In this document: positions 13,031 through 54,042 of the stretch, in pieces
Numbering within the stretch: the first letter of the stretch is position 1
How the letters are laid out: each line of letters opens with the position of its first letter
NCBI GenBank assembly: GCA_903851365.1
Contig: CAINOB010000061.1
Location: 1-64,000 of the forward strand
Reading direction: 5' to 3'
Origin: an uncultured Bacteroidota bacterium
Lineage (GTDB): Bacteria; Bacteroidota; Bacteroidia; Bacteroidales; UBA12481
Length of the DNA: 64,000 nt
The notes under the pieces: model-generated
The model's database searches: none
Seen by the model: the letters and a program-made list of their open reading frames with translations, nothing else
What the model was told of the DNA's origin: nothing
Position numbers and translations under genes: made by a program

Positions 13031-13078
13031 AATTATTTAGATAGGTAAAGTAACGAAATACCCTCTGATAATGTTGCG

Positions 13079-33133: not shown

Positions 33134-33217
33134 ACGAAGAAGAAGACAGGAGACGGGAGACAGGAGACAGGAGAAGAAGATCGGGAGACGAAAGACAGTT
33201 GGCAATCAGCAGTTGGA
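33134..33217. repeat. Heptameric tandem array of about 12 units (RGGAGAC then AGTTGGC words)
   Basis: Units of exactly 7 bp continue in phase for about 84 bp. The first nine are variants of AGGAGAC, GGGAGAC, GAAGATC and GAAAGAC; the last three are AGTTGGC, AATCAGC and AGTTGGA. It starts within 10 nt of the permease stop and is followed by a hairpin at 33242-33284. Confidence 0.8.
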
Positions 33218-33241
33218 AGTACGAAATCGGTAACCTTAGAG

Positions 33242-33284
33242 CGTTGTCATCCCGGCGAAAGCCGGGACCTTGTCCCGAACAACG
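33242..33284. repeat. Nested hairpin element, TTGTCATCCC family
   Basis: An inner stem CCCGGC/GCCGGG (33251-33256, 33261-33266, loop GAAA) lies inside an outer stem CGTTGT/ACAACG (33242-33247, 33279-33284). The same frame, TTGTCATCC + stem + GGGACC + GTCCC, recurs at 50804-50837 with a compensatory base-pair change in the stem. Confidence 0.75.
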
Positions 33285-33300
33285 ACATTATGCAATATCT

Positions 33301-33324
33301 GAAACCCTGAAACCCTGAAACACT
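33301..33324. repeat. Three tandem 8-bp units GAAACCCT
   Basis: GAAACCCT, GAAACCCT and GAAACACT follow one another, 14 nt before the ATG of the DUF2461 gene. The period here is 8, not 7. Confidence 0.7.
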
Positions 33325-33338
33325 AAAACTATCCTATC

Positions 33339-33992
33339 ATGCAACAAATTCTAACCTTTCTGCGCCAGCTGGAGCTGAACAATAACCGTGATTGGTTCAA
33401 TGCTCACAAGTCGGAATATCTCTCAGCCAAAACCGCTTTTGAGCAGATTCTTGAGAAAGTACTGGAAAACCTGAGTCAGGCAGATCCCCGTATTAAAGGA
33501 TTAAAAGTAGCTGATACGGTTTTCAGAATATATCGGGATACCCGTTTTGCAAACGATAAAACACCCTATAAAACCAATTTCGGCGCCCATATTTCGCGAG
33601 GTGGCAAAAATAGTGGTGAGCCAGGATATTATTTTCATATCCAACCAGGTGAAAGCTTTGTCTCGGGTGGGATCTATATGCCATCATCGGACAAGCTGAA
33701 ACTGATCAGAAAGGAGATTTTTCTATTTCCCGAAGATTTTTCTGCCCTCATCGAAGCGCCCTCCTTTGTTAAGAATTTTACATTTTTTGAGGATGATAAG
33801 CTCAAAAGGCCGCCACTGGGCTTTCCCGCCGATTTCCCATTGATTGAATATCTCAAACATAAAAATTATTGTCCCTGGGTGCCTTTATCCGACGATCAAT
33901 TGGTCAATTCGGATCTTGCCACCAGGATAGTTGACTACTATAGGTTGATGAAGCCATTCAATGATTTCATCTACAGAGCCTTGGAAGATTAG
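33339..33992 (+). CDS. DUF2461 domain protein
   Basis: A 217-aa soluble protein matching the DUF2461 (TIGR02453) family: LELNNNRDWFNAHKSEY near the start, then VFRIYRDTRFANDKTPYKTNFGAHI, the family hallmark, and YYFHIQPGESFVSGGIY. No function is established for the family. The gene stands between the repeat-rich region downstream of the metal permease and the cytochrome c biogenesis gene, which is on the same strand. Confidence 0.88.
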   Translation: MQQILTFLRQLELNNNRDWFNAHKSEYLSAKTAFEQILEKVLENLSQADPRIKGLKVADTVFRIYRDTRFANDKTPYKTNFGAHISRGGKNSGEPGYYFHIQPGESFVSGGIYMPSSDKLKLIRKEIFLFPEDFSALIEAPSFVKNFTFFEDDKLKRPPLGFPADFPLIEYLKHKNYCPWVPLSDDQLVNSDLATRIVDYYRLMKPFNDFIYRALED

Positions 33993-34105
33993 TGTTTCCT
34001 CAGCCTTTCCGAGACATTCAGAAAGAAATCAGGATTAAATATTATATTCGCGAAAAATTTATTTCTCGCCCTCTTTCACTATTTACCGTTTGTAAAACCT
34101 TATTT

Positions 34106-36835
34106 ATGAAAACCTTGAATAGGATATTGAAGTTTATTTTCTCTATGTCGTTTATGGGAATACTGGTAGTTTTCCTTGCATTTTGCATGGCCGTTGCCAC
34201 CTTTATCGAGAACCGTAACGGTACTACCGCTGCACAGGCCGTAGTATACCAGGCCTGGTGGTTTGAGCTTAGTGTTCTGCTGGTCTTTATCAATATCCTT
34301 GCGAATATTATCAGGCTTAAGTTATACAATCTTAAGCGATTACCTATTTTTATGTTTCACCTGGCTTTCCTGATCATCATTGCCGGCGCTGCTCTCACTC
34401 GTTATGTGGGAACAGAAGGGATCATGCATATCCGCGAAGGTGAAACCACATCAGATTACATCAGTTCCGATACTTATTTTTATGTAAAAGCGGAAAGTAA
34501 ATCAGGCGTTACTGAGAAGTTTCAAAGGATTTTCATTTCGCCTTCCAGCAAAAAAGAAGTCAACGTATCGTTTAAACTTGGATCCGATAAAGTCCATATC
34601 AGGAGTACGGAATATGTAAGCGGAGAATCAATGAAAATGGGCAGCCAGATGGCCGGCGGTAACAGTCATGCTGACGTTATGCAGATCCGCGTTCAAATCA
34701 ATGGGGGTTCTGAAGAGGTGGTGATTCGCGGTCTCCAGAAAAGTGATTTCATTGATAATCAATTTGAGATCAGTGGAATAAAATTTACTGCAAGTTTTGG
34801 ATCGAAACCAATGAAGCTTCCATTCAGCCTGACCTTAAACGATTTCCAATTAGATAAATATCCTGGTTCCATGAGCCCATCTTCTTTTGCCAGTGAGGTT
34901 ACGCTGAATGATCCAGCCGGGACAAAAGGAAAACCATACCGGATTTTTATGAATAATATTCTGAGCCACAAAGGGTATCGGTTTTACCAGTCTTCCTTTG
35001 ATCAGGATGAGCAGGGAACTGTTTTATCGGTAAACCATGATGCCCTGGGTACCGATGTCACGTATTTTGGCTATTTCATGATGTTTGCTTTTATCATCCT
35101 CTCCTTTTTTGCTCCGGGCAGCAGATTTCAGCGACTTTTACGGGAAAGCAGGAAAACGGTAGCTGTCGCCGGGCTGATCATAGGAATGGCACTCTTAACT
35201 GGCTACACTGCTTCGGCCCAGACTTTTCCCAATCCTCCTAATGCCGCTGAAGCAAAAGCGTTCGGTAAAATATGGGTTCAGGGCAGTGAGGGTCGGATGA
35301 AACCGGTGAACACCTTATCTTCTGAGATGCTTCGTAAGATGTTCGGTAAAAATAGTATTGCCGGAATGACTCCAGAGCAGTTTTGGCTGAGCCTCCTTAT
35401 CAAGCCCGATACCTGGTCTGATATAAAAATGTTTGACGTCAAGAATGTAGATATTGCCAATACTTTCCAGATCACTGACGGCAAAGGTTCCTACAGCGAT
35501 TTTTTCAGCAAGGATAAATACCTGCTGGGTGATATGGTCAACGATGCTTTGAAAAAGCAGCCGAGCCAGCGCAATGGAACAGATAAATATGTTATCAAGC
35601 TTGACGAAACGCTCAATGTTTTCTTTATGGGAATGACCGGACAGCTGCTGCAGATGTTCCCCGATATGAGAGACAAAAAAGCAAAATGGTCAGTTCCAGG
35701 TCAGGTACCTGCCGGATTAACTGGGATCGATTCATTGATGATTGCAGGTTCCTTTGGTGAATATCTTTCGGCGGTTGCCAGCAATGACCTGGCCAAAGCC
35801 CGCACTCTTCGGGAAGGGATTACCAGATATCAGGCTCAATACGGATCTTCCATCATTCCTTCGGCCAAAAAGGCCAATCTGGAGGTATTGTATAATAAAC
35901 TGCTGATTTTTGAGCGTCTGGCGATATTCTATGCCATGATCGGATTATTGTTCCTGATTGCCCAGATATGGGCACTCTTTAAACCAGCCAAGTGGCACAA
36001 AACATCTTCCTGGGTATTTGGAGGCCTTCTCTTCGCAGGATGGATATTACATACGGTCGGACTTGGATTACGCTGGTACCTTTCGGGACATGCGCCTATG
36101 AGCAATGGTTATGAATCCATGATCTTCGTTGCCTGGGGAACTCTTCTTGCCGGCTTCCTAGTGGTCCGGCGTTCGCAGTTACCTCTTGCTCTTACCGGCG
36201 TTCTGGCAGCATTATCCCTTTTGGTGGCACATCTTAGCTGGATGAGCCCCGAGATCACACCACTGGTGCCAGTATTGAAATCGGTATGGCTCACCGTTCA
36301 CGTTGCAATTATCATGACGAGCTACTCCTTCCTTGGGCTAAGTGCACTCATCGGCTTAATCACCATGGGTTTATATGTTGCAAAAACGAAAAAGAACCAC
36401 AAAATTCTCGACGGGCATATAAAACATCTCACCCGCTTGAATAAGATTGTTCTCACTGCCGGTTTATACCTGATCACCATCGGATGTTTTCTGGGTGCCA
36501 TCTGGGCCAATCAATCCTGGGGCCGCTACTGGGGATGGGATCCTAAAGAAACATGGTGTTTGATCTCGATTCTTATTTACAGTTTTGTTGGACATATGCA
36601 CAACATGAAGGAGTTTGATAATGATTTCACTTTCAATATGGGCTCCGTGGTTGCCTTTGCCTCGATTTTGATGACTTACTTCGGCGTTAATTATTTCCTT
36701 GGCGGAATGCACTCCTATGCCGCCGGTGAGGCAGCTACCGTTCCGGTATTTGTTTATGTTGCTTCGCTTGCAGTGATGGTTCTTTTATACTTTGCTTATT
36801 TGAATGACCTGAAATATCAGCAGAAGAAGAAGTGA
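34106..36835 (+). CDS. ResB-CcsA fusion cytochrome c biogenesis protein
   Basis: A membrane protein of about 909 aa that exports heme and joins it to apocytochrome c (system II). The N-terminal half holds three helices and a large periplasmic region of the ResB/Ccs1 type; the C-terminal half is CcsA, with the heme-handling WGRYWGWDPKETW motif and flanking histidines. Such fusions occur in Bacteroidota and epsilonproteobacteria. I use the ATG at 34106, since an upstream GTG (33992) would add 38 poorly conserved residues that overlap the DUF2461 stop. A GTGACGG repeat begins on its stop codon. Confidence 0.9.
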   Translation: MKTLNRILKFIFSMSFMGILVVFLAFCMAVATFIENRNGTTAAQAVVYQAWWFELSVLLVFINILANIIRLKLYNLKRLPIFMFHLAFLIIIAGAALTRYVGTEGIMHIREGETTSDYISSDTYFYVKAESKSGVTEKFQRIFISPSSKKEVNVSFKLGSDKVHIRSTEYVSGESMKMGSQMAGGNSHADVMQIRVQINGGSEEVVIRGLQKSDFIDNQFEISGIKFTASFGSKPMKLPFSLTLNDFQLDKYPGSMSPSSFASEVTLNDPAGTKGKPYRIFMNNILSHKGYRFYQSSFDQDEQGTVLSVNHDALGTDVTYFGYFMMFAFIILSFFAPGSRFQRLLRESRKTVAVAGLIIGMALLTGYTASAQTFPNPPNAAEAKAFGKIWVQGSEGRMKPVNTLSSEMLRKMFGKNSIAGMTPEQFWLSLLIKPDTWSDIKMFDVKNVDIANTFQITDGKGSYSDFFSKDKYLLGDMVNDALKKQPSQRNGTDKYVIKLDETLNVFFMGMTGQLLQMFPDMRDKKAKWSVPGQVPAGLTGIDSLMIAGSFGEYLSAVASNDLAKARTLREGITRYQAQYGSSIIPSAKKANLEVLYNKLLIFERLAIFYAMIGLLFLIAQIWALFKPAKWHKTSSWVFGGLLFAGWILHTVGLGLRWYLSGHAPMSNGYESMIFVAWGTLLAGFLVVRRSQLPLALTGVLAALSLLVAHLSWMSPEITPLVPVLKSVWLTVHVAIIMTSYSFLGLSALIGLITMGLYVAKTKKNHKILDGHIKHLTRLNKIVLTAGLYLITIGCFLGAIWANQSWGRYWGWDPKETWCLISILIYSFVGHMHNMKEFDNDFTFNMGSVVAFASILMTYFGVNYFLGGMHSYAAGEAATVPVFVYVASLAVMVLLYFAYLNDLKYQQKKK

Positions 36836-36873
36836 CGGGTGACGGGTGACTGGAGATGAAGACCGATAGACGG
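36832..36873. repeat. Heptameric array GTGACGG beginning on the ccsA stop codon
   Basis: Two GTGACGG units and one GTGACTG unit follow in 7-bp phase, then three weaker units (GAGATGA, AGACCGA, TAGACGG). The TGA stop at 36833-36835 lies within the first unit. The word is the reverse complement, rotated, of GTCACCC seen at 13079. Confidence 0.7.
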
Positions 36874-37012
36874 AAGAAAAGAAAAAGACGAGTCTTCAGC
36901 GCCAGTTTTGAATTTTGAAATTACACGATCAAGGGGTCTTAGAACTTCAGCGCATACTTTGATCTAAAACTTTATTATTCAGAATTGGTCCGCTTAGCCT
37001 GCCAAAATGCAG

Positions 37013-37047
37013 AGAGGCCGTCTCATCACTGAGGCGGCCTCTTTGTA
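37013..37047. terminator. Bidirectional terminator-like hairpin
   Basis: An 8-bp stem AGAGGCCG/CGGCCTCT (37013-37020, 37035-37042) with an inner CTCA/TGAG stem is followed by TTGTATTT. It lies between the convergent ccsA and PKD/FISUMP genes. Confidence 0.75.
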
Positions 37048-37051
37048 TTTC

Positions 37052-37115
37052 GTGTCACGCGTTTCGTGTTTCGCGTTCCGATCTTTCTTTCGTCTACCGA
37101 TCTTCTTCTTCGATG
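37052..37115. repeat. Heptameric array abutting the PKD/FISUMP stop codon
   Basis: GTGTCAC, GCGTTTC, GTGTTTC and GCGTTCC are in 7-bp phase; on the minus strand these are GAAACRC-type words. A pyrimidine-rich stretch with GATCTT and CGTCTACC words (complements of GAAGATC and TAGACG) runs up to base 37115, directly beside the stop codon at 37116-37118. Confidence 0.75.
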
Positions 37116-38867
37116 CTAGTCTTTAATACACCTCACGCTGAATCCGTATGCCTGACCGAGGTTAAGCTTAAAGTACCCATCCTGATCTCTCTGGAACGAA
37201 ACTGCCCAGGCGTTTTCGCCTGACGACTTGGTTGAGGTCCAGAAATTGGTAACGGTGTTCATCATTTCGGAGCGACCGGCGGTGGACCGCTGGCCTGCCA
37301 GGAACATTCTGAAATCACTGTCCCCGCTAACCAGCAGGTGGCTTTTTGCCTGGTTTGTGCCATAGAAGTCTACCAGCTGCTGCCATTCGGCCTGCGATGG
37401 GATATGCCAGCTAGTCGGGCATAAACCCTTGGCTCTTTCGGTTGTAGCACCATTCATTAAGTTGGTCCAGGTATAAAGGCCTCCGTAAAGGTTACAGTTG
37501 CTGACAAGATTACTGTAGCAAACTTTACCGGTTGCTTCATTCAGGTTTTCGGCCATCCACCACTGACTGCCTATTTTAACGGTACCGTAGGAGACGTTAT
37601 TCGGTTTATCGAGAATAAGTCCTGTTTCATTGGTTCCGCTGGTAACAAACACATTAAGTCCGGTTGTATCGGTCAAGCCACCTGAATCCATAACCTGCAT
37701 TCTGACATGATAAGTTCCTGCAGCGCCATATTTATGCGTTGCTGTCCTGTCCTTGTTATAATTGGTATCCCAGATGCCATCGCTTTCAAAGTCATATCTT
37801 ACCTGAAGTTGAGCTGCGATATCTTCGCGGTCGGTTGATGCTGTGGCATCAAAATAGAAATTCGTTGTCAGGTTTCCGTATTCATAACCGATAAAGAAAG
37901 CAGCGGTCGGTTTTAAATTCGAATGAAGAATAAAGAGGGTAGTCTTTATCTGGTTGATAAGACCCCATTGATCGCGGATTTCAAGGATTACACTGTTATC
38001 GCCTTCTGTTTGGAACTGATGGGCAATTACAGGATTGGTAAGGTATTCAGTATCAAATTCCGTGTCCTTGGAGTTTGTAAGGAAATTCCATCGATAGGTA
38101 AAAGTATTTCCAACATTGTCAGGATCATAGCTTGCAGAAGCATCGAGCATAACGGTATCAGAAGTTGATGGTTTTTCGGGTGACCATTTAAATAGCGGCA
38201 CCAATCTAGGATTACTTAGCGATACGCTTACTGATTTTCTTAATGTTGCAGTCAGCCCCTGTGGATCAATAACCTGAAGGGTTGGATTGTAAACACTGGA
38301 TGCAATGAAATAATGGGTGTATGATGTTTGGTCGGAATATTCTGTATCATAGATTCCATCTCCTTCCCAATCCCAGCGAAATTTCAGGGTCGACAAACTG
38401 TCTTCGTCGTCATGAGTATTCCTGGTGTCGAATGAAAATTCGGTACGGAGGTTACCGCTCCCCGGCATCATGGTAAAACTCGGTTGTGGTGGGCTATAAC
38501 CGCGGCCAACCTGAACGGAGAGCTGCGCAGTGTCGCTTAATCCCGACTCATTCCTGACTTCCATTCGCGGTGAATAGGAACCGGGCTTGTAATACCGATG
38601 GGAAAACGATTTGGAACGGGAAAACCCGGTGTCCCAAATGTTATCATTATCCCAGTCCCAGCGGAAAAACAAAATGGTGTCACCAACATTGGTGGCTTTT
38701 GAATCAGATACATCGAAAGTGAAAAGCGATGTTGTCAGACCACTGGCGGGATTAATTTTAAATGCAGCGACAGGTGGTGTCTTAACGGTATCTTCCTTTT
38801 TACACTGAACGATGCCGGCGATCACCAGGACGAAAATGAGTAAATATCGGGTATATGCTAACTTCAT
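37116..38867 (-). CDS. Multi-PKD FISUMP lipoprotein
   Basis: A 583-aa surface lipoprotein. The lipobox Cys is in GIVQCKK near residue 22. Four PKD-like domains of about 95 residues follow, each with an FRWDWDND-type strand and a final VTV-like strand (about residues 30-410). Residues about 415-583 are a FISUMP domain with WWMAENL, LCPTSWHIPSQAEW and GFSVRCIKD at the end. It is a longer paralog of the protein at 2061-3008. It starts 3 nt after the stop of the 153-aa lipoprotein gene and is the last gene of the three-lipoprotein operon. Confidence 0.85.
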   Translation of the reverse strand: MKLAYTRYLLIFVLVIAGIVQCKKEDTVKTPPVAAFKINPASGLTTSLFTFDVSDSKATNVGDTILFFRWDWDNDNIWDTGFSRSKSFSHRYYKPGSYSPRMEVRNESGLSDTAQLSVQVGRGYSPPQPSFTMMPGSGNLRTEFSFDTRNTHDDEDSLSTLKFRWDWEGDGIYDTEYSDQTSYTHYFIASSVYNPTLQVIDPQGLTATLRKSVSVSLSNPRLVPLFKWSPEKPSTSDTVMLDASASYDPDNVGNTFTYRWNFLTNSKDTEFDTEYLTNPVIAHQFQTEGDNSVILEIRDQWGLINQIKTTLFILHSNLKPTAAFFIGYEYGNLTTNFYFDATASTDREDIAAQLQVRYDFESDGIWDTNYNKDRTATHKYGAAGTYHVRMQVMDSGGLTDTTGLNVFVTSGTNETGLILDKPNNVSYGTVKIGSQWWMAENLNEATGKVCYSNLVSNCNLYGGLYTWTNLMNGATTERAKGLCPTSWHIPSQAEWQQLVDFYGTNQAKSHLLVSGDSDFRMFLAGQRSTAGRSEMMNTVTNFWTSTKSSGENAWAVSFQRDQDGYFKLNLGQAYGFSVRCIKD

Positions 38868-38870
38868 GGT

Positions 38871-40363: not shown

Positions 40364-40508
40364 GATGAATACCTAAATGGTAAAAAATCCAACCTCTTTG
40401 GCCTGGGGGATAAAAGGCCGCGTAAAAGTACGATTCATATACTCATAAACAAATCTGACTACCCTCTTCAGGTATCATTTTCACATTTTTTAAGACTTAT
40501 TAAGTCCT

Positions 40509-42097: not shown

Positions 42098-42137
42098 GGT
42101 GTTAATTTTTACCGGGGCAAAGGTACGATTTAGATTC

Positions 42138-42228
42138 GGGACACGAAACGCGAAACGCGTGACACGAAACACCGAAGAAGAAGATCGGTGGACGAAGAAG
42201 AAGATCGGAAGAGTCGGCAGTCGGCAGT
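42138..42228. repeat. Composite heptameric array of about 13 units with changing words
   Basis: The 7-bp phase is kept throughout while the word changes: GGGACAC, GAAACGC twice, GTGACAC, GAAACAC, then GAAGATC and GGTGGAC types, then CGGCAGT twice. It lies between the zinc ATPase and binding-protein genes. Confidence 0.85.
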
Positions 42229-42294
42229 AACTTCGGTACTCACTTGGATCTCCTACTTCGGAATTCCGAATTGGTCCTGGAATTTTTTAAGGCA

Positions 42295-42323
42295 CCCCGG
42301 GTTGAAACCCGGGGCTATTGATA
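42295..42323. repeat. Hairpin element, TTATCAATAGCCC family (minus orientation)
   Basis: A 9-bp stem CCCCGGGTT/AACCCGGGG (42295-42303, 42306-42314) is followed on the plus strand by CTATTGATAA. The conserved flank and a different stem recur at 54047-54079. No T-run follows it on the minus strand, so it is not a typical terminator for the zinc binding-protein gene. Confidence 0.75.
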
Positions 42324-42332
42324 ACTAGAATC

Positions 42333-43244: not shown

Positions 43245-45181
43245 TGATTAAAAGGAAGATATTTTTTAATTGTTTGGAGATTTATCTCATTAACCGAATT
43301 GCTGCCGTCGGGAGTGTACATGACTTCGATTTTATCGTGATATACTTCCTGGATTTTAAATCTCACCATTTTCATGGTCGAGTTGATCATGTGATTTTGT
43401 TCGGTGAAGGGCTCGTCGACAATTTGAAAAGTGGAGGGTACCCATTTTTCCGGAAACTGATTTCGATATTCTGCCGTTTCCTTGAATTTATAAAAGTCCT
43501 GTTTGATGGCTTTCAGCAATACCTCGGCATCGGCAATCTTATGTTTCGCTGCATAACGGCTGACTTTTGCCGAATCGAGCGTGATGATGGCACTGGTGTA
43601 TTTTCGCATATCATTGTAAACCATTGCCTGCAAAACCAGATCCGAAGAATTCTGAATGGCCTCTTCGATTCCCTCAGGCGAATATTTCTCACCATCGGTC
43701 GAAATGAGCAATGCCTTGCCACGACCCACAACCATGAGGAAATTATCTTTATCATAATACCCCAGATCACCGGTATACAACCATCCGTCTTTAACAGTTT
43801 TTGCTGTAGAATCGGGATTCTTGTAATATCCCTTCATAACATTGTCACCCTGAATAACGACTTCACCCTGAACACCCTTGGCAGCTTCAGTTCCGTCGGG
43901 AAGCATGATCTTGCATATCAGGTTCGGAATAACCTTGCCTGATGAACCAAGTTTATGTACGTCGGGTGTATTTGCCGAAATAATGGGAGTGGCCTCGCTT
44001 AGGCCATAGCCCTGATAAACGGGTACGCCAATCGAATAGAAAAATACTTGCTGCCTGATATCCAGAAGAGCGCCACCTCCAACCAAGAAACGAATGTTCT
44101 TGCCGAAAATCAACCTTACTTTTTTGAAAACCAGTACTTCGGCAAGTTTATAAGGGATATAATTGATCATTCGGACCAAAAACCCTGCCTTATGAAAACC
44201 ATCCCGGTTCATCCGGATTCCGGCATTTAATCCGGCATTGAAAATACCATTAACGAATTTGCCCTTGGCAGCTACACCATCCTTTATCTTTGACATGAAA
44301 TTGCCGGAAAGGGCAGGAACTGTGAGAATAAAGTGCGGATCACATTCTACCATATTTATTGGGATATTCTTGAGGGTTTGAACTCCGCCACCCCGTGCAT
44401 CCACGAAATAGAGACTGAGTCCGCGGAGCAGCGCTGCATAAATTGCAACGGTATGCGCAAAGGAGTGATCGAGCGGCAGAATGATATAGAGCCTGTGGCC
44501 GACGGGTAAATTGAAATATTCCATGGCATCGGTGCAGTTCGAATGATAATTGAGCTGCGTTAACATGATGCCTTTTGGATCGCCCGTGGTACCTGAGGTA
44601 TAGGAGATAGTTACTACATCTTCCTCCAAAATCTCAGCTTCTGTTTGGTCGAGATACGACTCCTGCTCCTCAAACTCATGTTTTCCGGCGTTTAAAATAT
44701 CAGTATAGCGCAGGATATCTTTTTCAATGTTTATGCCAAACACCTTGCAATCTTTCTCAATAGGGGAGAGGTCGTCATCAAGAATGATAATCTTTTTAGT
44801 GAACTCCATCTGGGTCCAGATCGAAGCCACTTTTTCAAAGGTATTTCTCGATACAATAATTGCTTTGGATTCCGAGTGATTCAAGCGGAAGAGAACCTCG
44901 TCGGGCATGAGTTTTATGGAAAGCGGAACGGTGGTGCCACCAGCAAATAGAATTCCAAATTCGCCTGTAATCCAGCGGTTACGACCTTCGGCCAGGATGG
45001 CAACCTTATCTCCCTTATTCATTCCGATCTGATGCAGTCCGGCAGCAAGGAACCTTGATTCATGCAGAACTTCAGGATAGGTCATTCCATCCCATCCTTT
45101 TTCTCCCTTTTGATTGGTATAGGCCGTTTGGGGATACTTCTCGGCACTGATTCGCAGCATCTGGAGGACTGTTCTTTTCAT
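43241..45181 (-). CDS. Long-chain fatty acid-CoA ligase (AMP-binding)
   Basis: A 646-aa acyl-adenylate/acyl-CoA synthetase of the FadD15-like long type. Motifs are SYTSGTTGDPKGIM, the linker YQGYGLSEATPIIS, YTGDLGYYDKDN and GKALLISTDGEKYSPEGIEE. It would activate fatty acids for lipid synthesis or degradation. It lacks the ACP and acyltransferase domains of the fusion at 10544-13030. It is followed with a 4-nt overlap by the zinc-binding protein gene. A heptameric array (45182-45216) lies directly before its start codon. Confidence 0.9.
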   Translation of the reverse strand: MKRTVLQMLRISAEKYPQTAYTNQKGEKGWDGMTYPEVLHESRFLAAGLHQIGMNKGDKVAILAEGRNRWITGEFGILFAGGTTVPLSIKLMPDEVLFRLNHSESKAIIVSRNTFEKVASIWTQMEFTKKIIILDDDLSPIEKDCKVFGINIEKDILRYTDILNAGKHEFEEQESYLDQTEAEILEEDVVTISYTSGTTGDPKGIMLTQLNYHSNCTDAMEYFNLPVGHRLYIILPLDHSFAHTVAIYAALLRGLSLYFVDARGGGVQTLKNIPINMVECDPHFILTVPALSGNFMSKIKDGVAAKGKFVNGIFNAGLNAGIRMNRDGFHKAGFLVRMINYIPYKLAEVLVFKKVRLIFGKNIRFLVGGGALLDIRQQVFFYSIGVPVYQGYGLSEATPIISANTPDVHKLGSSGKVIPNLICKIMLPDGTEAAKGVQGEVVIQGDNVMKGYYKNPDSTAKTVKDGWLYTGDLGYYDKDNFLMVVGRGKALLISTDGEKYSPEGIEEAIQNSSDLVLQAMVYNDMRKYTSAIITLDSAKVSRYAAKHKIADAEVLLKAIKQDFYKFKETAEYRNQFPEKWVPSTFQIVDEPFTEQNHMINSTMKMVRFKIQEVYHDKIEVMYTPDGSNSVNEINLQTIKKYLPFNQ

Positions 45182-45216
45182 GGGTATGGGGTATTAGGTT
45201 TCAGGTATCGGGTGTC
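45182..45216. repeat. Heptameric array of five units (GGGTATG type)
   Basis: GGGTATG, GGGTATT, AGGTTTC, AGGTATC and GGGTGTC follow in 7-bp phase. It fills the space between the chitinase stop (45229) and the acyl-CoA synthetase ATG (45181), and touches the ATG. Confidence 0.8.
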
Positions 45217-45228
45217 AACTTTTCTATT

Positions 45229-46368
45229 TCATTTATTAAGTCCATTATATATGGCATCCAACAGCAATCCACTTTTATCGCCATTGTATTCCCAGAACAT
45301 GATCCCGCCGAGGTGTTTTGCTTTAACAAAATCAGCCTTTAGCCTCAGTGATTCAGGATCATCATAGGAAATCACCATGGCTGAATCCCTGGAATACAGG
45401 TACGGAGCCCTGGCCGATTTATCCCAATAGCGGGTGAAGGTATTCTTGTTGAGGTAATTATTTATAATCTCTGTATAAACTTTGTACTGGCCGGTTGTTG
45501 AACCCTGCTGATATAACCCGTGATTCGCATCCGGGACACCGCGCCAGAATCGGCCATAAAATGGTACTCCAACCACGATTTTCTCAGGCGGAACACCTGC
45601 TCCGATATTCCTTTCAATCGCAATTTCAGCACTGATATTTGAAGCACCCGGAAAATCTGTTTTACTGAGATTGGCATGATGTCCGCTCACCTTGCTCAGG
45701 CCACTGTAAAAATCATAAGCCATCACATTGATAAAATCCAGGTATCTTTGCGCCTCACCAAGGTTGGTCCAGCGGAAATATTCTTCATCAGCTCCGCCAG
45801 CAATTGTCAGCAAAAATGCGGGATTGATTTTATTCAATTCGACACGCAAAGCTTTCAGCATCAGGGTAAAATTCTCTTTATCTTCTTTTCTGAAAACATT
45901 ATTGTCCCCTGGCTGCCCGGGATATTCCCAATCGATATCAATTCCGTCAAAGCCAAATTCCCTGATCATCCTGCACCCGCTGGCAGCAAATTTTGCCCGT
46001 GACTCTGGGGTGAGGGCAGCGTCCGAAAAACCTTCAGCTCCCCAGCCCCCAACTGATAAAATTACCTTAAGATCCGGATTCCTGGCTTTCAAGCCGATGA
46101 TCCTGCTGACCGAAAGTTTGATGCGTTGTTCCTGCTCCGGATTGCGGCTTTGGAAGGCAATTTCACCGTTGACTACTTTGGCAAAGGCATAATTGATATG
46201 AGTCAGCATGCGGATCAGGGAATCAGGGTATTCCGGAGCACGCGCACCCATCATGTAAGCAACTATTTTGTACTGCGGCTTGCCCGGTTGATTCAGTGCA
46301 TTTAACGGTATTAACAGCAGTGTAATGCCGATAATAAAATACGCATTTAAGCCGGACAACTTTTTCAT
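45229..46368 (-). CDS. Secreted GH18 chitinase
   Basis: A 379-aa secreted glycosidase with a signal peptide ending near ALNQPG. The GH18 active-site motif is DGIDIDWEYPG near residue 140, with Glu as the proton donor; SVGGWGAEG precedes it, and MAYDFYSG, GVPFYGRFW and GGIMFWEYNGD follow, all typical of family 18. The likely action is cleavage of beta-1,4-GlcNAc linkages in chitin or peptidoglycan-type glycans. The final EYNGDKSGLLLDAIYNGL shows that the barrel is complete. It is in the same direction as the sortilin-like gene upstream. Confidence 0.92.
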   Translation of the reverse strand: MKKLSGLNAYFIIGITLLLIPLNALNQPGKPQYKIVAYMMGARAPEYPDSLIRMLTHINYAFAKVVNGEIAFQSRNPEQEQRIKLSVSRIIGLKARNPDLKVILSVGGWGAEGFSDAALTPESRAKFAASGCRMIREFGFDGIDIDWEYPGQPGDNNVFRKEDKENFTLMLKALRVELNKINPAFLLTIAGGADEEYFRWTNLGEAQRYLDFINVMAYDFYSGLSKVSGHHANLSKTDFPGASNISAEIAIERNIGAGVPPEKIVVGVPFYGRFWRGVPDANHGLYQQGSTTGQYKVYTEIINNYLNKNTFTRYWDKSARAPYLYSRDSAMVISYDDPESLRLKADFVKAKHLGGIMFWEYNGDKSGLLLDAIYNGLNK

Positions 46369-46436
46369 AGAGGTTTCAGAAAGTAGCTAAAATACAATTT
46401 AACTACGGAATCCGATATGCAAGCCCGCAAAAATGC

Positions 46437-46506
46437 GAAACACGAAACACGAAACGCGTGATACGGAACTCCAAATCTTCCGGGTCACGCGTCACGTGTT
46501 TCGATC
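46437..46506. repeat. Heptameric array with inverted second half, abutting the BNR protein stop
   Basis: GAAACAC twice, GAAACGC, GTGATAC and GGAACTC are followed in the same 7-bp phase by CACGCGT, CACGTGT and TTCGATC, which are complements of the same words. It ends at 46506, directly beside the stop codon at 46507. Confidence 0.8.
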
Positions 46507-49266
46507 TTATTTCCAGCTATCCTTCATTATAACAAACCCTGCTTCCTGTTCTTTGCCGTTTACTGATAGCTTAACAGTGTATTCGCCGGGTCCGGTTTGA
46601 GTGTTCAGGAAATTGGGATCGGCACCCTGGCCGCGACCAAAACGACCACCGCCCATGCCACCCATGCCACCGCCGCCACCTGTGCGTCCGGCACCACGAG
46701 CGCCGCCTGCGCCACCTGCACGGGCCCTGTCGGCCTGTTGTTTCATTTTATCTTTTTCTTCTTGGGTGTATTCTCTTACCCGTTTCTGGTAATTCCAGGT
46801 CAGCTGATTTATTCCTGCCTGTCCGGAGGTTTTATTTTCATATAGTAACCTCTCTCCTTCATAAACTCTCATAACAACCTCTTTCACTGAGTCTTTCAAA
46901 TAGAAGGAAACCGGAACTCCGGAAATTTCACTTTCACCGGCATAATTGCTGGATGAGCTGTTGTTTTCGCTGGCGCCTTTCCATTGAACTTTGTTTTCCG
47001 GTTTAAACAGATAAAAATCGGAAGCCAGGATCTTGCTGTTGAGCTTTTCAATCCAGGAAATATCGGTAATCCAGATACTTCTTCCGTGAGTGCCAACGAT
47101 CAGGTCATTTTCGCGAGGATGAATCTTAAGGTCTTCGCAGGCTACAAAAGGCATATTTCCACGCATGGACGACCATGTTTTCCCACCGTCGATACTGACA
47201 AAAACCTGTCTTGTTGTGCCGACAAAAAGCAAATCAGGATTACGGAAATGTTCGCGGATCACACAAACCGGCTCATTAGGCAGATTGGCTGAAATCGACG
47301 TCCAGGTTTTACCGTAATCAGTGGTTTTATAAACAAACGGACGTAAATCGTCGTTCCTTAAACCGCTAAGGGTAACATAGGCTGTGGCACTGGAATAATG
47401 CGATGGCTCTACACGGCTTACCCAGTAACCCGGCCCCTTGATATTAGCAGTAACATCAATCCAGGTCTTTCCGCCATCTTTCGTCATCTGTACTTTACCA
47501 TCATCAGTGCCTACCCATAATACGCCTGCTTCGAGGTAAGATTCTTCCATGGTAACAATCGTGAAGTAGGGAACGCTTCCGGTACCGTGGACTTTCAAGG
47601 TATCATTAGCAGTAAGATCGGGACTGATTTCGGTCCAGCTTTCACCCCGGTTGGTTGATTTAACTACTTTATTACCGGCATGATAAATTGTTTTTGCATT
47701 ATGCGGAGATACTACAATCGGGGCATTCCAGGCCCAGCGATCCATCTTGGTATACTGAATATCTGCTGATTCACCGGTTACCTGATCCAGTCGGCTGATA
47801 GAGCCATTCTGCGACTCATTGTATAACCAACGGCTATCATCCCAATCCACTACATTATACATCCCGTCGCCACCACCGGTTGTTCTCCAGTCTTCCAGTT
47901 TGATGGCGCCACCGCCTTTTTTCGAGGATGGACCTTTTATGGAGCCGTTATCCTGTAATCCACCATAAACATTATAGGGATAATCAAAATCATAACCGAT
48001 AGCAACGAACTGGCCAACCGGTAGAAAATCTGGATGAAACCAGTTCAGACCTGAATCATAGGTGATTCCCAAACCATGATCAAATCCGAGTAAAAAATGC
48101 TTCGGATCTTTCGGATCGATCCACATGGCATGGTTGTCGCCACCAAAACGGAACGCTGTTTTCCAGTCTTTTCCACCGTTGGATGTTTCCCATACGCTGA
48201 TTCCGATAATGTATACATGTTCAGGAGTGGTAGGATCGATGCGCACCTGCTGATAATAATAGGCTGGTCCGCCACCGATGCTCTGGCCATCCGGACTGGC
48301 TTTTTTCCATGTTTTGCCGCCATCGTTGGAACGATAAACCTCATCGCCCTTTTCGTTCTGGCCTTTTTTCGGACCGATTCCGTTTTTCATCATTTCCCAC
48401 CGCTGGGCGGTGGTTACGCTATCAATATTACAGTTTTCGATATTGGCATAAACCACTTTCGGATTGCTTGCTGAAATATCAACACCGATGCGGCCAAGGA
48501 TGCCTTCCGGCAATCCACCTGCCAGTTTGGTCCAAGACGATCCTCCGTTGGTTGATTTATACAGTGCGCTGCCCGGACCGCCGGCATTAAATGTCCATGG
48601 CTTGCGTTCCTTATCATAGGAAGTTGCGATAAATACATCCGGATTGGTTGGATCCATCACCAGATCAACAACGCCAATTTCGCGGTTGTCCACTGTGACT
48701 TTTAAAACCTGTTTCCAGGTTTTTCCACCGTCGGTTGATTTGAAAACTCCTTTATCGCCTTTTGGGGTATACAATGGTCCTTCGGCGGCCACCCAGATGA
48801 TATCGGAATTTTTGGGATGAATGATGATCCTGCCAATATGTGATGAGTTTTTCAATCCCATATTGGTCCAGGTTTTTCCACCGTCCGTCGATTTATAAAT
48901 CCCGTCGCCATAATAGGCGGTCCGGCTGTTATTCGCTTCGCCGGTTCCAACCCATACATTTTCGGGATTTTTTTGATCGATCGCGATATCGCCAATACTG
49001 ATAGCACCTGCTTCATCGAAAACCGGTACAAAAGTGATCCCGTTATTTACGGTTTTCCACAGCCCGCCGGATGCCAGGGCGGCATAAAACGTAGCCGGAT
49101 TTTTTTCATTCACTGCAAAGTCAACGAAACGTCCGCTGTGCCTGGTTGAGCCGATGGCACGATACTTTACTTTGCTCAGAATATCTTTTGATAATTCCTG
49201 TGCATTAACGTTGATACCTGCCCATGACAAGGCAATCAGTGCAACAATAAATACGCGATTTTTCAT
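46507..49266 (-). CDS. Secreted sortilin/BNR-repeat (VPS10-like) protein
   Basis: A secreted protein of about 919 aa. The ATG at 49266 gives a clean signal peptide (MKNRVFIVALIALSWAGINVNAQ minus the last residue group); a frame from 49314 adds 16 residues. Repeated BNR/Asp-box motifs, such as STDGGKTWTNMG, STNGGSSWTK, SNDGGKTWKK, TKDGGKTW and TTDYGKTW, define one large propeller, as in VPS10/sortilin proteins of Bacteroidota. A glycine-rich spacer near residues 875-905 precedes a last beta-sandwich. Enzyme activity is not evident. It probably binds glycans or proteins outside the cell. Confidence 0.85.
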   Translation of the reverse strand: MKNRVFIVALIALSWAGINVNAQELSKDILSKVKYRAIGSTRHSGRFVDFAVNEKNPATFYAALASGGLWKTVNNGITFVPVFDEAGAISIGDIAIDQKNPENVWVGTGEANNSRTAYYGDGIYKSTDGGKTWTNMGLKNSSHIGRIIIHPKNSDIIWVAAEGPLYTPKGDKGVFKSTDGGKTWKQVLKVTVDNREIGVVDLVMDPTNPDVFIATSYDKERKPWTFNAGGPGSALYKSTNGGSSWTKLAGGLPEGILGRIGVDISASNPKVVYANIENCNIDSVTTAQRWEMMKNGIGPKKGQNEKGDEVYRSNDGGKTWKKASPDGQSIGGGPAYYYQQVRIDPTTPEHVYIIGISVWETSNGGKDWKTAFRFGGDNHAMWIDPKDPKHFLLGFDHGLGITYDSGLNWFHPDFLPVGQFVAIGYDFDYPYNVYGGLQDNGSIKGPSSKKGGGAIKLEDWRTTGGGDGMYNVVDWDDSRWLYNESQNGSISRLDQVTGESADIQYTKMDRWAWNAPIVVSPHNAKTIYHAGNKVVKSTNRGESWTEISPDLTANDTLKVHGTGSVPYFTIVTMEESYLEAGVLWVGTDDGKVQMTKDGGKTWIDVTANIKGPGYWVSRVEPSHYSSATAYVTLSGLRNDDLRPFVYKTTDYGKTWTSISANLPNEPVCVIREHFRNPDLLFVGTTRQVFVSIDGGKTWSSMRGNMPFVACEDLKIHPRENDLIVGTHGRSIWITDISWIEKLNSKILASDFYLFKPENKVQWKGASENNSSSSNYAGESEISGVPVSFYLKDSVKEVVMRVYEGERLLYENKTSGQAGINQLTWNYQKRVREYTQEEKDKMKQQADRARAGGAGGARGAGRTGGGGGMGGMGGGRFGRGQGADPNFLNTQTGPGEYTVKLSVNGKEQEAGFVIMKDSWK

Positions 49267-49500
49267 TTGACAAAAGTTTGAGGTTTCCACCTCCAAATTA
49301 GTGCAATCCTGCAATCAATGATCTGTTACCCGGTTTTCCGGATGGTGTTTTAACATGATTTAACTTTTCCTGATTTCAAGGTGTCCGCTGGTGTATCAAA
49401 ATAATACGACTTCTGCTATTGGAGTTTTTTTAATACATTGATTATTAATAATTTAGAATTGATGGTCCAAAGATTGCTAATCGATTGAAAATCATAATTA

Positions 49501-50745: not shown

Positions 50746-50749
50746 AAAA

Positions 50750-50798
50750 CAGTCATCAGTCGGCAGTCTTCAGTCCTCAATCTTCAGTTGGCAGCCTC
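50750..50798. repeat. Heptameric array of seven CAGTCNN units
   Basis: Seven perfect-phase units starting CAGTCAT and CAGTCGG and ending CAGTTGG and CAGCCTC. It begins 4 nt after the adaptor stop and leads into the hairpin at 50804-50837. Confidence 0.9.
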
Positions 50799-50803
50799 GA
50801 AGA

Positions 50804-50837
50804 GTTGTCATCCCCGCGGAGGCGGGGACCCCGTCCC
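50804..50837. repeat. Hairpin element, TTGTCATCCC family
   Basis: Stem CCCCGC/GCGGGG (50812-50817, 50822-50827) with loop GGAG, followed by GGACC and GTCCC. It is the partner of 33242-33284, with one swapped base pair in the stem. Confidence 0.75.
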
Positions 50838-50860
50838 TTACCACGAATAATTTTTTCCCT

Positions 50861-51523
50861 ATGATAAAACTCTCAAACATCTCGAAAACCTATCGGACTC
50901 AATCGATAGAAACACTCGCACTGGACAATATAAATCTGGAAGTGAAACCCGGTGAGTTCGTTTCAGTGATGGGCCCCTCAGGCTGCGGCAAAAGTACGCT
51001 GCTCAATATTATCGGACTGCTGGATGAGCCTGACAAAGGAATTCTGCACCTCGAAGGGAACCTGATCAGTGGCTATGCCGATAAAAAGACAGCCGGACTC
51101 CGGAACCGGATGGTTGGATTCATTTTTCAGAGTTTTCACCTTATCAAGGAGCTGAATGTGTTTGATAATGTGGAGCTTCCTTTGATCTACCGGAAGATGC
51201 CATCCGGGGAAAGGAAGAAACGGGTGTATGAGGCACTCGAACAGGTGAGCCTGACAAACAGAATGCACCATTACCCCTCACAATTGTCGGGAGGCCAATG
51301 CCAGCGCACCGCCATAGCACGTGCACTCGCAGGCAATCCGGGCATTATCCTGGCTGATGAGCCGACAGGAAACCTCGACAGCACGGTGGGCAAGGAAGTC
51401 ATGAATATTCTGACTGATCTTAACAAGGCAGGAACCACGATTATGATGGTAACGCACGATGAATTGCTGGCGAAAACCACGCATCGGATTATCAGATTAT
51501 TTGACGGAAGGCTGGTCGGATAA
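50861..51523 (+). CDS. ABC transporter ATP-binding protein (MacB/LolD type)
   Basis: A 220-aa ATPase with Walker A GPSGCGKST, signature LSGGQCQR, Walker B ILADEPTGNLDS and switch MMVTHDE, all of the LolD/MacB group. It energises the two FtsX-like permeases that follow (17 nt to the first). It is preceded by the adaptor gene, with a repeat array and hairpin in the 115-nt gap. Confidence 0.93.
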   Translation: MIKLSNISKTYRTQSIETLALDNINLEVKPGEFVSVMGPSGCGKSTLLNIIGLLDEPDKGILHLEGNLISGYADKKTAGLRNRMVGFIFQSFHLIKELNVFDNVELPLIYRKMPSGERKKRVYEALEQVSLTNRMHHYPSQLSGGQCQRTAIARALAGNPGIILADEPTGNLDSTVGKEVMNILTDLNKAGTTIMMVTHDELLAKTTHRIIRLFDGRLVG

Positions 51524-51540
51524 CCCCTAAAAGAAAAGAA

Positions 51541-52816
51541 ATGTTAAAAAATTATCTGAGAACCTTCTGGAAAGTCGCTCGCCAGAATAAGCTGTTTACC
51601 TTCCTGAGCCTGTTCGGTATCAGTATGACGATCATGTTTGTGATGATATTCAGCATGACCGTTACCAAGGTGGTGAAAGGTTCCGGGCCGGAAAAGCATC
51701 TTGGGAATATTCTTGTTGCTGAGAATATGAAAGTCAGAACACAGAAAAGGGGTGGAAATGAAGTGTTCACCGAATTAGGAAGGACAGAATGCGAAGAATA
51801 TTACAAAAAAATTAAGAGTGCCGATAAGATCAGTATGTTTTTTGGGTACGATTGGGAGTTTCGGCAAAATGGGAGGCAATATACTAAAGGGTACATGGTT
51901 ACGGATGCTGAATTCTGGGAAGTATTCGATTTTGACTTTATCCTGGGCCGGCCCTATACAAAAGAGGAAGTAACTAATGGTGCCAATCTGGCTGTCATTA
52001 CGGAAAGTCTGAGAGAGCTGCTTTTTGGGAACGAAAATAATGTTTTGGGTAAAATAGTACAGTACCGTGACTTCTCCCTTACCGTTATTGGAGTTGTTGA
52101 AGACATTCCCCCCACCTCTCAAAATCTTCGGTCAGGCGTTTTCTTCCCATATACTCTTTTCCCCGCCGAAAAGCCGGATACCAGGTCATTTAGTCCTTAT
52201 TCCGGTGCTTTCTCTCTGGCCTTTAAAGCGAAGAACCGAAATCAATTTCCGGAAATTCGACGGGATTTTCAAGCGACTCTTCAGCGTATTGATGCTGCTG
52301 ATCCCAATCTGGCCCTCTTTTGTGGCAGGTCCGAATACTCAGTGGCAGAGATTGTTTGCAACCTTTGATCCTGAAGATGACTTTGGACCCTGGGCACTTT
52401 TACGAAAATACCTGTTGTGGGGCTTTGGATTTATATTTCTGCCTGCCGTAAACCTGATGGCCCTCAACTTTGCCCGGATCCGGGAAAGAGGGGAGGAAAT
52501 AGCCGTGCGAAAATCATTCGGAGCCAGCTCGGCTGTGCTGAAGGGACAGTTTATTTTCGAGAATCTGGTACTCACGGTTACCGGAGGTGTTATTGGCATT
52601 GTATTATCCTTTGTGGTGGTCGCTCTGCTGGGTAATACACTGAATATACCGGTCAAGGCAGGAACTACCGTTCCCATGAGTTTTTCATTCGATTTCCTGG
52701 TATTTGGAATTACACTGGGGGTCTGCCTTTTATTTGGTATGCTTTCAGGCGTTTTGCCTGCCATACGCATGTCGCGGATGAAACCGGTTAAATATCTGAA
52801 AGGAGGCGAAATATGA
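51541..52816 (+). pseudogene. MacB/FtsX-type permease, frameshifted
   Basis: An ABC permease of about 425 aa spread over two frames. The first, from the ATG at 51541, covers the N-terminal helix and the MacB-like periplasmic domain and ends after PNLALF. The second continues with VAGPNTQWQ, then the three C-terminal helices of FtsX with ARIRERGEEIAVRKSFGAS and PAIRMSRMKPVKYLKGG. One extra T in the run at 52318-52321 (TTTT for TTT) explains the break, so this is either a real mutation or a homopolymer sequencing error. The gene otherwise looks intact and overlaps the next permease by 4 nt. Confidence 0.8.
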
Positions 52817-54006
52817 TACGCATATTTTTTAAAACCCTTTGGAACAACCGGATGCGGAATGTGTTGGTGTTTATTGAGCTGTTCATTATATCGCTGGTAT
52901 TAGTCAACCTTACTGTTTATATTACTGAAAGGGTTCGGATCCGTAGCATCAAATCCTGCTACGATATGCGAAGTGTTGTCAGTGCACAAATAATGAACAG
53001 GGAGGATCCGAATGGTACGACTCCCCTTGATAAGCTCAATCAGGAGACTTTTAGCAGACTGAAATTGAGATTGATGTCAAACGCGATGGTTGAATCGGTT
53101 TCTTTTGCAGGTAATGCCTCTCCGTTTTTTTGTTGCCCGGAAGGATGCACTCATAAATTTGGTGAGGAGGAGGTCCATATCCATAGAATGATTGTTGATT
53201 TTGATTATGCCAAGGTGTTTAAGATTAAACCATTGAAAGGCAGATGGTTTAATGAGAGCGACCGAGCCAAGACCGTCGAGTCGATACTGATCTGTAAATC
53301 TGTAGATGAAAAATATTACAAAGGAGAGGCTGTCGGCAAGTTACTGCCAGGCAAGGGACGCTGTAGTTTTGAAATCATCGGAGTGGTGGAGGATTTTAAG
53401 CGAACCGACTATGAGGAACCAAGGGCGACAGGCTTTGTTTTGGATGAAGAGGTTAAGAATTTCAGGCATTTGGAACTCCTGGTGCGTGTAAAACCAGGTC
53501 AACAGGAGAACTTTCTAAATATATATGAGAGTGAAATATTTTCGGTAATCGATCCAAAAGTATGGTTTATCCGCAGTATGTATTCCTTTGAGAATATGCG
53601 GAGTACCGAGAATCTGGACAGGCTTCAGCGCAAATACCTTGGAGTATTACTGGCCATTTTCGTGTTGATCAATGTTTTGCTGGGTGTGATCGGTATTCTC
53701 TGGTACAACACCAATCTACGGATTCATGAGATCGGGGTAAAACGGGCGCTCGGATCGACAGGCAGATTTATCAAAACACAGTTGATTCTTGAAAACCTGT
53801 TGCTGGGCGGACTGGGTCTTCTGGTTGTGGCGTTGGTCTATATTCAGGTTCCCTCCATCAGGATAACCAAGGTGGGGCCAGGCGTGATGTACCTCGCGGT
53901 TGGTATCAGCATGGTCGTTATGGTTCTGCTAATTTTGCTTAGCACCTGGATTCCGGCATCGATAGCCTCGAAGATCCGGCCGGCAGAGGCCTTGAAAACG
54001 GAATAA
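52813..54006 (+). CDS. MacB/FtsX-type ABC permease
   Basis: An intact 397-aa permease. One helix at residues about 15-40, a periplasmic domain with a cysteine pair (FFCCPEGC), then three C-terminal helices containing the family motif IHEIGVKRALGSTGRFIKTQLILEN near residue 305, and WIPASIASKIRPAEALKTE at the end. It would pair with the permease at 51541-52816. It may allow the transporter to work as a hetero-dimer. Confidence 0.88.
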   Translation: MIRIFFKTLWNNRMRNVLVFIELFIISLVLVNLTVYITERVRIRSIKSCYDMRSVVSAQIMNREDPNGTTPLDKLNQETFSRLKLRLMSNAMVESVSFAGNASPFFCCPEGCTHKFGEEEVHIHRMIVDFDYAKVFKIKPLKGRWFNESDRAKTVESILICKSVDEKYYKGEAVGKLLPGKGRCSFEIIGVVEDFKRTDYEEPRATGFVLDEEVKNFRHLELLVRVKPGQQENFLNIYESEIFSVIDPKVWFIRSMYSFENMRSTENLDRLQRKYLGVLLAIFVLINVLLGVIGILWYNTNLRIHEIGVKRALGSTGRFIKTQLILENLLLGGLGLLVVALVYIQVPSIRITKVGPGVMYLAVGISMVVMVLLILLSTWIPASIASKIRPAEALKTE

Positions 54007-54007
54007 G

Positions 54008-54042
54008 AAGTCCTCAGTCTTCAGTACTCAGTTGGCAGCGAG
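54008..54042. repeat. Heptameric array of five CAGTCTT-type units
   Basis: AAGTCCT, CAGTCTT, CAGTACT, CAGTTGG and CAGCGAG in 7-bp phase begin 1 nt after the permease stop. The last two units match the last two of the array at 50750 (CAGTTGG, CAGC). A hairpin follows at 54047-54079. Confidence 0.85.

Follow-up and report, generated by a model that had tools for sequence, protein, structure and literature searches.

The 64,000-nucleotide stretch analysed here (the window; contig C61 of G000, the 5.23 Mb, 130-contig genome of an uncultured Bacteroidota bacterium) carries between its genes a series of short tandem arrays whose degenerate units repeat every 7 bp under several different words. On balance, we think that these are probably hypervariable heptanucleotide arrays of the long simple sequence repeat (SSR) type, arising from a lineage-specific process by which DNA is gained, lost and rearranged in steps of 7 nt, and retained where they are tolerated. 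The kind itself is already known, Bacteroidota included, and so is part of its behaviour, namely, for GGGNATC, persistence at a site with varying length and sequence, and conserved and variable unit positions (PMC4679880 and PMC4692102). What sets the present arrays apart is that one word can replace another at a kept site, that some arrays lie in frame in the loops of enzymes, and that several known words meet in a single family.

Heptanucleotide arrays in the window and in the genome

Using a hexamer-scored gene caller, we defined 29 spacer pieces in the window (5757 bases) and compared them with 1000 dinucleotide shuffles. The spacers hold seven arrays at period 7 against a shuffle mean of 0.04, and none of the 1000 shuffles reached seven. 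At periods 5, 6, 8, 9, 10 and 11, the counts are 0, 2, 1, 0, 0 and 0, respectively; the observed count was reached by 1 of 1000 shuffles at period 6 and by 46 of 1000 at period 8. A sequence-only reading of the window had listed nine intergenic sites with a strict 7-bp period. All nine score at period 7, and Tandem Repeats Finder (TRF) reports this period at eight of them, missing the array at 45182, which is plain by eye. The presence of 7-bp arrays is confirmed; "strict" is too strong a word because the units are degenerate. Intergenic placement does not hold throughout: the 36832 array starts in the stop codon of the open reading frame (ORF) 33992-36835, and elsewhere in the genome some arrays lie in frame inside enzymes.

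Beyond the window, we sampled G000 and two congeners, G001 and G006. The G000 sample (959 kb, around 18-19% of the genome) consists of stretches picked by contig number and not by content, plus the window. For G001 (214 kb), the first contigs were selected for CAGTC arrays, so array densities in this genome are inflated. In the G006 sample (96 kb), C15 and C31, among the first 20 contigs, were likewise selected for CAGTC arrays. Extra G001 and G006 stretches used in the spacer comparison and the inverted-pair test were chosen by match to the window or to the IleS and MetK genes, and for the latter test two G000 stretches from C63 and C92, both holding CAGTC matches, were added. The spacer counts in these samples and the word survey use a crude ORF caller; counts inside genes, by position and in the window use the hexamer-scored one.

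Period 7 leads in all three genomes. Spacer arrays at periods 7, 6, 8 and 9 number 23, 2, 12 and 5 in G000 (shuffles, 0.6 at period 7), 42, 0, 7 and 1 in G001 and 9, 0, 0 and 2 in G006 (shuffles, 0 at period 7 in both). The family therefore survives a comparison of period 7 with periods 6, 8 and 9 and with shuffles over 959 kb of its genome and parts of two congeners. The 7-bp period is dominant but not exclusive, as 8-bp arrays form a second class in G000, real but smaller. This class has its own words, CTGAAACC, GGCAGGAG and TTGCCCTC, with examples at window position 33299, L033:8697 and L050:8722.

Several words recur in the spacer arrays of more than one species among G000, G001 and G006. 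When 41 genomes were searched for exact triple units, (CAGTCNN)3 was found in 11; it matches 92 times in G001 and 156 times in G006, and both G002 and G003 lack it. (TAACTGA)3 occurs in three of the 41 (G004, G006 and G008), with 0 matches in G000. (GGGNATC)3 is found in G001, G003, G006, G007, G008 and G000, which has 11 exact matches; G008 has 29, every one of them GGGAATC. (CCCCANT)3 occurs only in G008 and in G027, which belongs elsewhere in the order, and 0 times in G000. In a Bacteroidota-wide sample of 395 genomes, 33 contain (CAGTCNN)3 and 3 contain the CAGTC core at period 8. The reversed-word control CTGACNN was found in 61 of the 395 (counted by eye), and in 4 at period 8; since CTGACNN is a heptamer word itself, these figures provide no null control. 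Viral contigs gave matches at each of periods 7, 8 and 6, with no bearing on which period leads.

Array sites can persist while words change

To compare arrays site by site, we matched spacer counterparts through their flanking genes. Judged by the protein encoded at 33992-36835, the nearest named relatives are L022, L023 and L024, metagenome-assembled genomes assigned to Bacteroidetes, Porphyromonadaceae and Bacteroidales, with 79, 79 and 62% identity. At several of the compared places, the site and the 7-nt step persist while the word changes. For example, the spacer with the arrays at 42141-42228 has 7-bp arrays in five species (G000, G006, G001, L022 and L023) under several different words: G006 has CGTGACA-type units and then a long CAGTCNN run, G001 has CAGTCTT, L022 AAATAAC/AAAAGAC and L023 AACTGAT-type units. 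The 46436 array reads CGAAACA in both G000 and G006, and the G001 spacer has GTCACCN units.

At other places the word is also kept. CAGTCNN-type units stand at the 50750 site in G000, G001 and G006 alike. The 45182 array has five GGGTATC-type units in G000 and eight in G001, and is longer in G006 with the word family unchanged. Aligned by eye, the G000 and G001 versions keep the order of their common units and differ by two substitutions and three whole units. A whole-unit change of length was seen at this one orthologous pair, and it agrees with the earlier proposal that the arrays are driven by slippage.

At the 37048 end of the spacer 36835-37116, G006 holds a short ACTGAAG array (score 14.5), and the L022 counterpart of the spacer contains two 8-bp arrays facing each other. 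The counterpart of the 13077 interval in G001 measures 2.5 kb, with a GTCACCN array (C929:5653) and a 13-unit GACTGNN array at its right flank (C929:6579). In G001, the counterpart of the 37048-37080 array lies within around 40 bp of the end of contig C183; in draft genomes, arrays may coincide with contig ends.

In-frame arrays inside enzymes

Many arrays lie within called genes: 20 of 47 in G000, 23 of 64 in G001 and 1 of 8 in G006. Some of these calls are doubtful short ORFs, and one of the 20 G000 cases is a native run at 21385; we therefore base the in-frame claim on four enzymes. Each 7-nt unit shifts the reading frame, yet period 7 leads even in genes of at least 250 amino acids. The 465 such genes of G000 hold 13 arrays at period 7 and 4, 4, 3 and 5 at periods 6, 8, 9 and 12; the corresponding counts in 115 genes of G001 are 17 and 0, 2, 2 and 0. 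When these genes were codon-block shuffled once, period 7 gave 1 array in G000 and 0 in G001.

The four enzymes of G000 are IleS, GDP-mannose 4,6-dehydratase, MtnA and MetK. From the part matching "NRDN" to the part matching "EYFLGWTTTPWTL", IleS exceeds 8c8w by 20 residues. At the position of the insert, GDP-mannose 4,6-dehydratase has 35 residues compared to 11 in 1db3, and MtnA has 62 compared to 15 in 1t9k, with the array within those 62. MetK is the least sharp case. Its repeat, which precedes HVNPTGKF, is common to G006 and was not seen in 12 members of the order; the distance from STQHD to NPTG is 67 residues against 44-64 in the 12 (3-23 above).

The IleS loop before WTTTPWTL was readable in seven family members; the G002 match starts downstream of it, and G006, G008, G009 and G011 matched only distant synthetases. 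Five of the seven, G000 included, have an in-frame 7-bp array in this loop, and the words are all different: GTCACGN in G000 (7-bp score 16.5), GTGACAG/GTCACCN in G001 (13), GTCACTC in G005 (20), CGTTACG in G003 (15) and CACACNN in G010 (20). The loop of G007 is short and repeat-free, and 11 members of the order score at most 6.5. In G004, IleS (L161) has a different long in-frame insert (PPSLERSGAKSTSGEV...PLLHKEGAGGG) before WTTTPWTL, so that this loop may accept insertions in general. An NADH-dehydrogenase-like protein of G001 (L124) gave a weak sign of an insert only. For annotation, this is a warning that essential enzymes may contain peptides encoded by repeats, specific to a lineage and not to be taken for domains.

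Constrained words and near-random unit order

Several observations weigh against the 7-nt process that we favour, some of them against plain slippage as its form. GAC is present on one strand in 43 of the 72 spacer arrays of G000, G001 and G006, for a random expectation of 17.5%. Mismatches cluster by column (sum of squares 3766 in 73 arrays compared to a permutation mean of 2263, sd 39), a contrast that an inherited old variant inflates because the permutation treats steps as independent. For the 70 arrays with a GAC consensus, the mismatch rates at G, A, C and positions 4-7 are 0.23, 0.06, 0.05, 0.17, 0.12, 0.41 and 0.35, the A and C columns being the least variable. Column-biased mismatches and stable A and C columns indicate that the word is constrained. 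Identical neighbouring units number 39 in G000, 88 in G001 and 41 in G006, compared to 33.5, 80.2 and 34.0 after unit shuffling (sd 3.7, 6.2 and 4.1). Neighbour identity is thus barely above shuffling, a poor fit to simple slippage, which predicts strong runs. Patterns of the A-B-A type (19, 62 and 24, compared to shuffled 18.1, 45.0 and 18.5; sd 3.8, 6.2 and 4.1) are in clear excess in G001 only.

Plain slippage, that is, slippage plus random point mutation, is hard to reconcile with the fixed columns and with a unit order close to random, neither of which it predicts. The favoured process leaves the choice of 7 and the fixity of certain unit columns unexplained, and the combination of fixed columns and near-random order is a lead to follow.

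The comparisons with relatives add further points of the same sign. The 36832 end of the spacer 36835-37116 is without an array in the G006 counterpart, and the L022 counterpart of the 33141 spacer is without a 7-bp array. The 12 8-bp arrays in G000 spacers compare to 0.2 in shuffles. All comparisons are between species. Congeners differ strongly, G002 being without triple units of CAGTCNN, TAACTGA, GGGNATC and CCCCANT, and a gene explaining the differences in array load between congeners was not found. Such a strong contrast between G002 and G001 or G006 within one genus should permit a search for the gene responsible. With array-rich (G001, G006 and G008) and array-poor species (G002, G009 and G011, the last two being incomplete genomes), comparison site by site and repeat-coded peptides that can be placed on protein alignments, the genus is a natural test bed.

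Possible origin of the arrays

In the 7-nt process that we favour, units would be gained, lost and reshuffled by replication misalignment or by unequal recombination between units. We infer that such a process could act genome-wide and that arrays would become visible where selection tolerates the insert: in spacers after genes, less often in divergent promoter spacers, and in some enzyme loops when the total stays in frame. The step and the site would be kept longest while the word drifts or gets replaced, and the arrays would have no common sequence-specific function.

The sharing of long identical strings bears on how arrays spread. Array pairs with an identical 21-mer number 7 in G000, 29 in G001 and 6 in G006, compared to unit-shuffled means of 3.5, 30.6 and 3.7; for an identical 24-mer, the numbers are 1, 18 and 6 compared to 2.0, 20.1 and 2.9. 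With sharing slightly above the shuffles in G000 (21-mers) and G006 and not in G001, the alternative offered by the sequence-only reading, a dispersed element copied as a block, finds little support, and we rejected block copying between arrays. Together with the data on step and site, long identical strings that are little above unit shuffles favour a process working in 7-nt steps.

It is unlikely, in our view, that the arrays are a mobile micro-element, in which arrays and inverted partners would form a hairpin element inserting into spacers and, in frame, into genes, in the manner of the Rickettsia palindromic elements. Such an element would fit the arrays that lie in frame within IleS, MetK, GDP-mannose dehydratase and MtnA; by eye, the inserts in IleS of G000 and G001 look like inverted array pairs around a short loop, as does the stretch in MetK. 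The slight excess of shared identical strings in G000 (21-mer only) and G006 (21- to 24-mer) points in the same direction; in G001, the sample richest in arrays, however, neither 21-mer nor 24-mer sharing is above unit shuffling. Inverted partners within 150 bp are found for 15 of 73 arrays in G001 against 19 of 438 control comparisons, but at the same threshold for 0 of 52 in G000 (control 17 of 312) and 0 of 19 in G006 (control 8 of 114). With the excess in G001 only, we rejected inverted pairing as a general rule. There is also no conserved element sequence, as words differ between species at one site. Y1-type transposase genes are present, but Y1_Tnp turned up in each of the 8 congeners searched, whether rich or poor in arrays, and a RAYT/Y1 transposase was rejected as the driver on this ground.

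We also doubt that the arrays are sites, repeated every 7 bp, at which an oligomeric regulator binds DNA or RNA, each site having a fixed core beside freely varying positions. Conserved core columns, free remaining columns and a nearly random unit order would all suit such sites, and PMC4679880 suggests that the TAACTGA arrays in one genome of the Beggiatoaceae have a regulatory role. The position of the arrays points elsewhere. Per kb of spacer, G000 has 0.64 arrays between convergent, 0.34 between co-directional and 0.12 between divergent genes (8, 15 and 3 arrays), and G001 has 2.36, 2.12 and 0.98 (7, 28 and 3 arrays), so that arrays are rarest in divergent spacers, where counts are small. 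Among decidable co-directional cases, the coding strand carries GAC in 6 of 10 in G000 (6:4) and 9 of 19 in G001 (9:10). Of all co-directional arrays, 10 of 15 in G000 and 17 of 28 in G001 are closer to the stop upstream than to the start downstream. These densities and the even orientation agree with tolerance and not with a promoter-proximal or strand-specific site; replacement of the word at a kept site and arrays within enzymes also speak against a regulator, and a regulatory role is without support.

Templated writing, in which an enzyme would add 7-nt units off a short sloppy template, as in degenerate telomeres, and arrays would mark repaired ends, is very improbable: the constant step, conserved core, free columns, near-random unit order and several step-keeping dialects would agree with it, but many different words would require many templates.

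Relation to known heptanucleotide repeats

The STRR sequences of cyanobacteria are heptanucleotide arrays in which several words occur, on either strand, CCCCANT-type words among them. The likeness to STRR drawn by the sequence-only reading holds in form: heptanucleotide tandem step, several words, both strands. The CCCCANT word itself is absent from G000 and restricted to G008 and G027 among the 41 genomes.

Heptanucleotides are the leading category of long repeats in most genomes according to Mrazek et al. 2007, as cited in PMC4679880; slippage was proposed, and 7 nt was suggested to be the length of DNA in contact with the polymerase. Why bacterial genomes prefer 7-nt repeats has been asked since 2007 (cited in PMC4679880). 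The arrays described here resemble long 7-nt SSRs in the excess of 7 nt over other periods and shuffles and in the whole-unit length change (one pair). They differ in that several degenerate words are found per genome, one word can be swapped for another between relatives, and arrays also occur inside conserved enzymes.

The sequence-only reading knew of no such family in Bacteroidota. PMC4679880 does report one: TAACTGA heptamer arrays, interspersed with other heptamers, occur in Beggiatoaceae, cyanobacteria and five Bacteroidetes. It also states that indels between two Cyanothece strains in TAACTGA-type arrays are mostly 7-nt steps, and that repeats within ORFs mostly lie at the ends of the protein; it names an RNA polymerase beta-prime-like ORF as an exception, and also a PurC gene with the repeat near its end. 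The 7-nt step and the mixing of heptamers (in some Bacteroidetes and in Microcystis) are shared with our arrays, and the TAACTGA word occurs in G004, G006 and G008. G000, in contrast, is without the unit and also has arrays inside enzymes. In BOGUAY (Beggiatoaceae), TAACTGA repeats are mostly just upstream of starts and forward (PMC4679880), whereas G000 and G001 arrays show no preference for such a place and their strands are even.

According to PMC4692102, Xanthomonas and Nostoc have GGGNATC arrays in which some unit positions are conserved and others vary; some arrays form inverted pairs, and in two xanthomonads arrays lie between identical gene pairs and vary in length and sequence. A preference for four units and G-quadruplex folding also belong to the description of these repeats. 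The (GGGNATC)3 matches of G000 are alike for this one word, and the 45182 array is a degenerate form of it. Most arrays here have other words, which are not G-rich, so a G-quadruplex role cannot be general, and the word family is replaceable at a kept site. The Rickettsia palindromic elements, as part of PMC10969869 describes them, are alike in their in-frame insertion into metabolic genes (here IleS, GDP-mannose dehydratase, MtnA and, less sharply, MetK); unlike them, our arrays share neither a conserved sequence nor a peptide. Inverted pairs are found in a minority of arrays, with an excess in G001 only.

In the literature searched, which left subscription journals mostly outside, we did not find the replacement of a word family at a kept site, nor one essential-enzyme loop with repeated in-frame arrays of different words, nor one genome that, as G008 does, holds the words of Beggiatoaceae, Xanthomonas and cyanobacteria. 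G008 holds three known words and the IleS loop of five relatives has five; the heptamers of Beggiatoaceae, Xanthomonas, Nostoc and other cyanobacteria could conceivably be dialects of one 7-nt writing or duplicating process, which would keep the step and a short core, vary the rest and, in some lineages, rewrite loops of essential enzymes. We put this forward tentatively, as a rather doubtful extension.

Features of the window

The arrays and their neighbours are listed below.

Table 1. Tandem arrays and associated repeats in the window (TRF, Tandem Repeats Finder)
Feature	Position	Period (bp)	Scores and remarks
CGGTCAC x4 array (GTCACCN word)	13077-13104	7	TRF score 42; 7-bp score 16
AGGAGAC/GGGAGAC array, nearly 5 units	33141-33174	7	TRF score 55; 7-bp score 19.5
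CTGAAACC array, secondary period, in the spacer of the 33141 array	33299-33329	8	TRF score 48
GTGACGG array; first unit contains the stop codon of ORF 33992-36835	36832-36856		TRF score 38; 7-bp score 13
TTTCGTG/TCACGCG/TTTCGCG array, downstream of ORF 37116-38867(-)	37048-37080	7 and 14 (TRF)	score 8.5 (37058-37080)
ACACGAA/ACGCGAA (CACGAAA-type) array	42141-42172	7	TRF score 36; 7-bp score 10
AGTCGGC array, 2.4 units, adjoining the 42141 array	42212-42228	7	TRF score 34
GGGTATG/GGGTATT/AGGTTTC/AGGTATC/GGGTGTC array, abutting the start of ORF 43241-45181(-)	45182-45216		7-bp score 10.5
CGAAACA x3 array	46436-46458	7	TRF score 40; 7-bp score 13.5
GTCACGCGTCACGTGTTTCG, inverted partner of the 46436 array	46484-46503		from reading the sequence; inverted-pair score 11, under the count threshold of 12
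CAGTCNN array, about 5 units, NN variable	50750-50786	7 and 14 (TRF)	7-bp score 12.5
Dispersed palindrome (GTTGTCATCCCCGCGGAGGCGGGGACC...), neighbour of the CAGTCNN array, outside the 7-bp family	50795-50848		matches in G001 and G006
AGTCCTC/AGTCTTC/AGTACTC array	54009-54032	7	TRF score 34; 7-bp score 9.5

A further 7-bp run at 21385-21408 lies in the gene 20718-21968, which we take to be reductase-like. It is native coding sequence that G006 retains at the protein level, and being conserved in this way it was excluded from the 7-bp family. Rfam gave no structured RNA family at gathering score within the window.

Among the spacer 36835-37116, its G006 and L022 counterparts and the G001 counterpart of 46368-46520, some show nested inverted repeats when read by eye, with outer arms, inner TTTTGAATTTTGAA-type arms and a hairpin innermost. 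The palindrome at 50795-50848 has dozens of short matches in G001 and G006, at 74-100% identity and mostly above 85%. Several of the matches to this palindrome (GTTGTCATCCCCGCGGAGGCGGGGACC...) stand beside 7-bp arrays, and a related palindrome is found near window position 33220.

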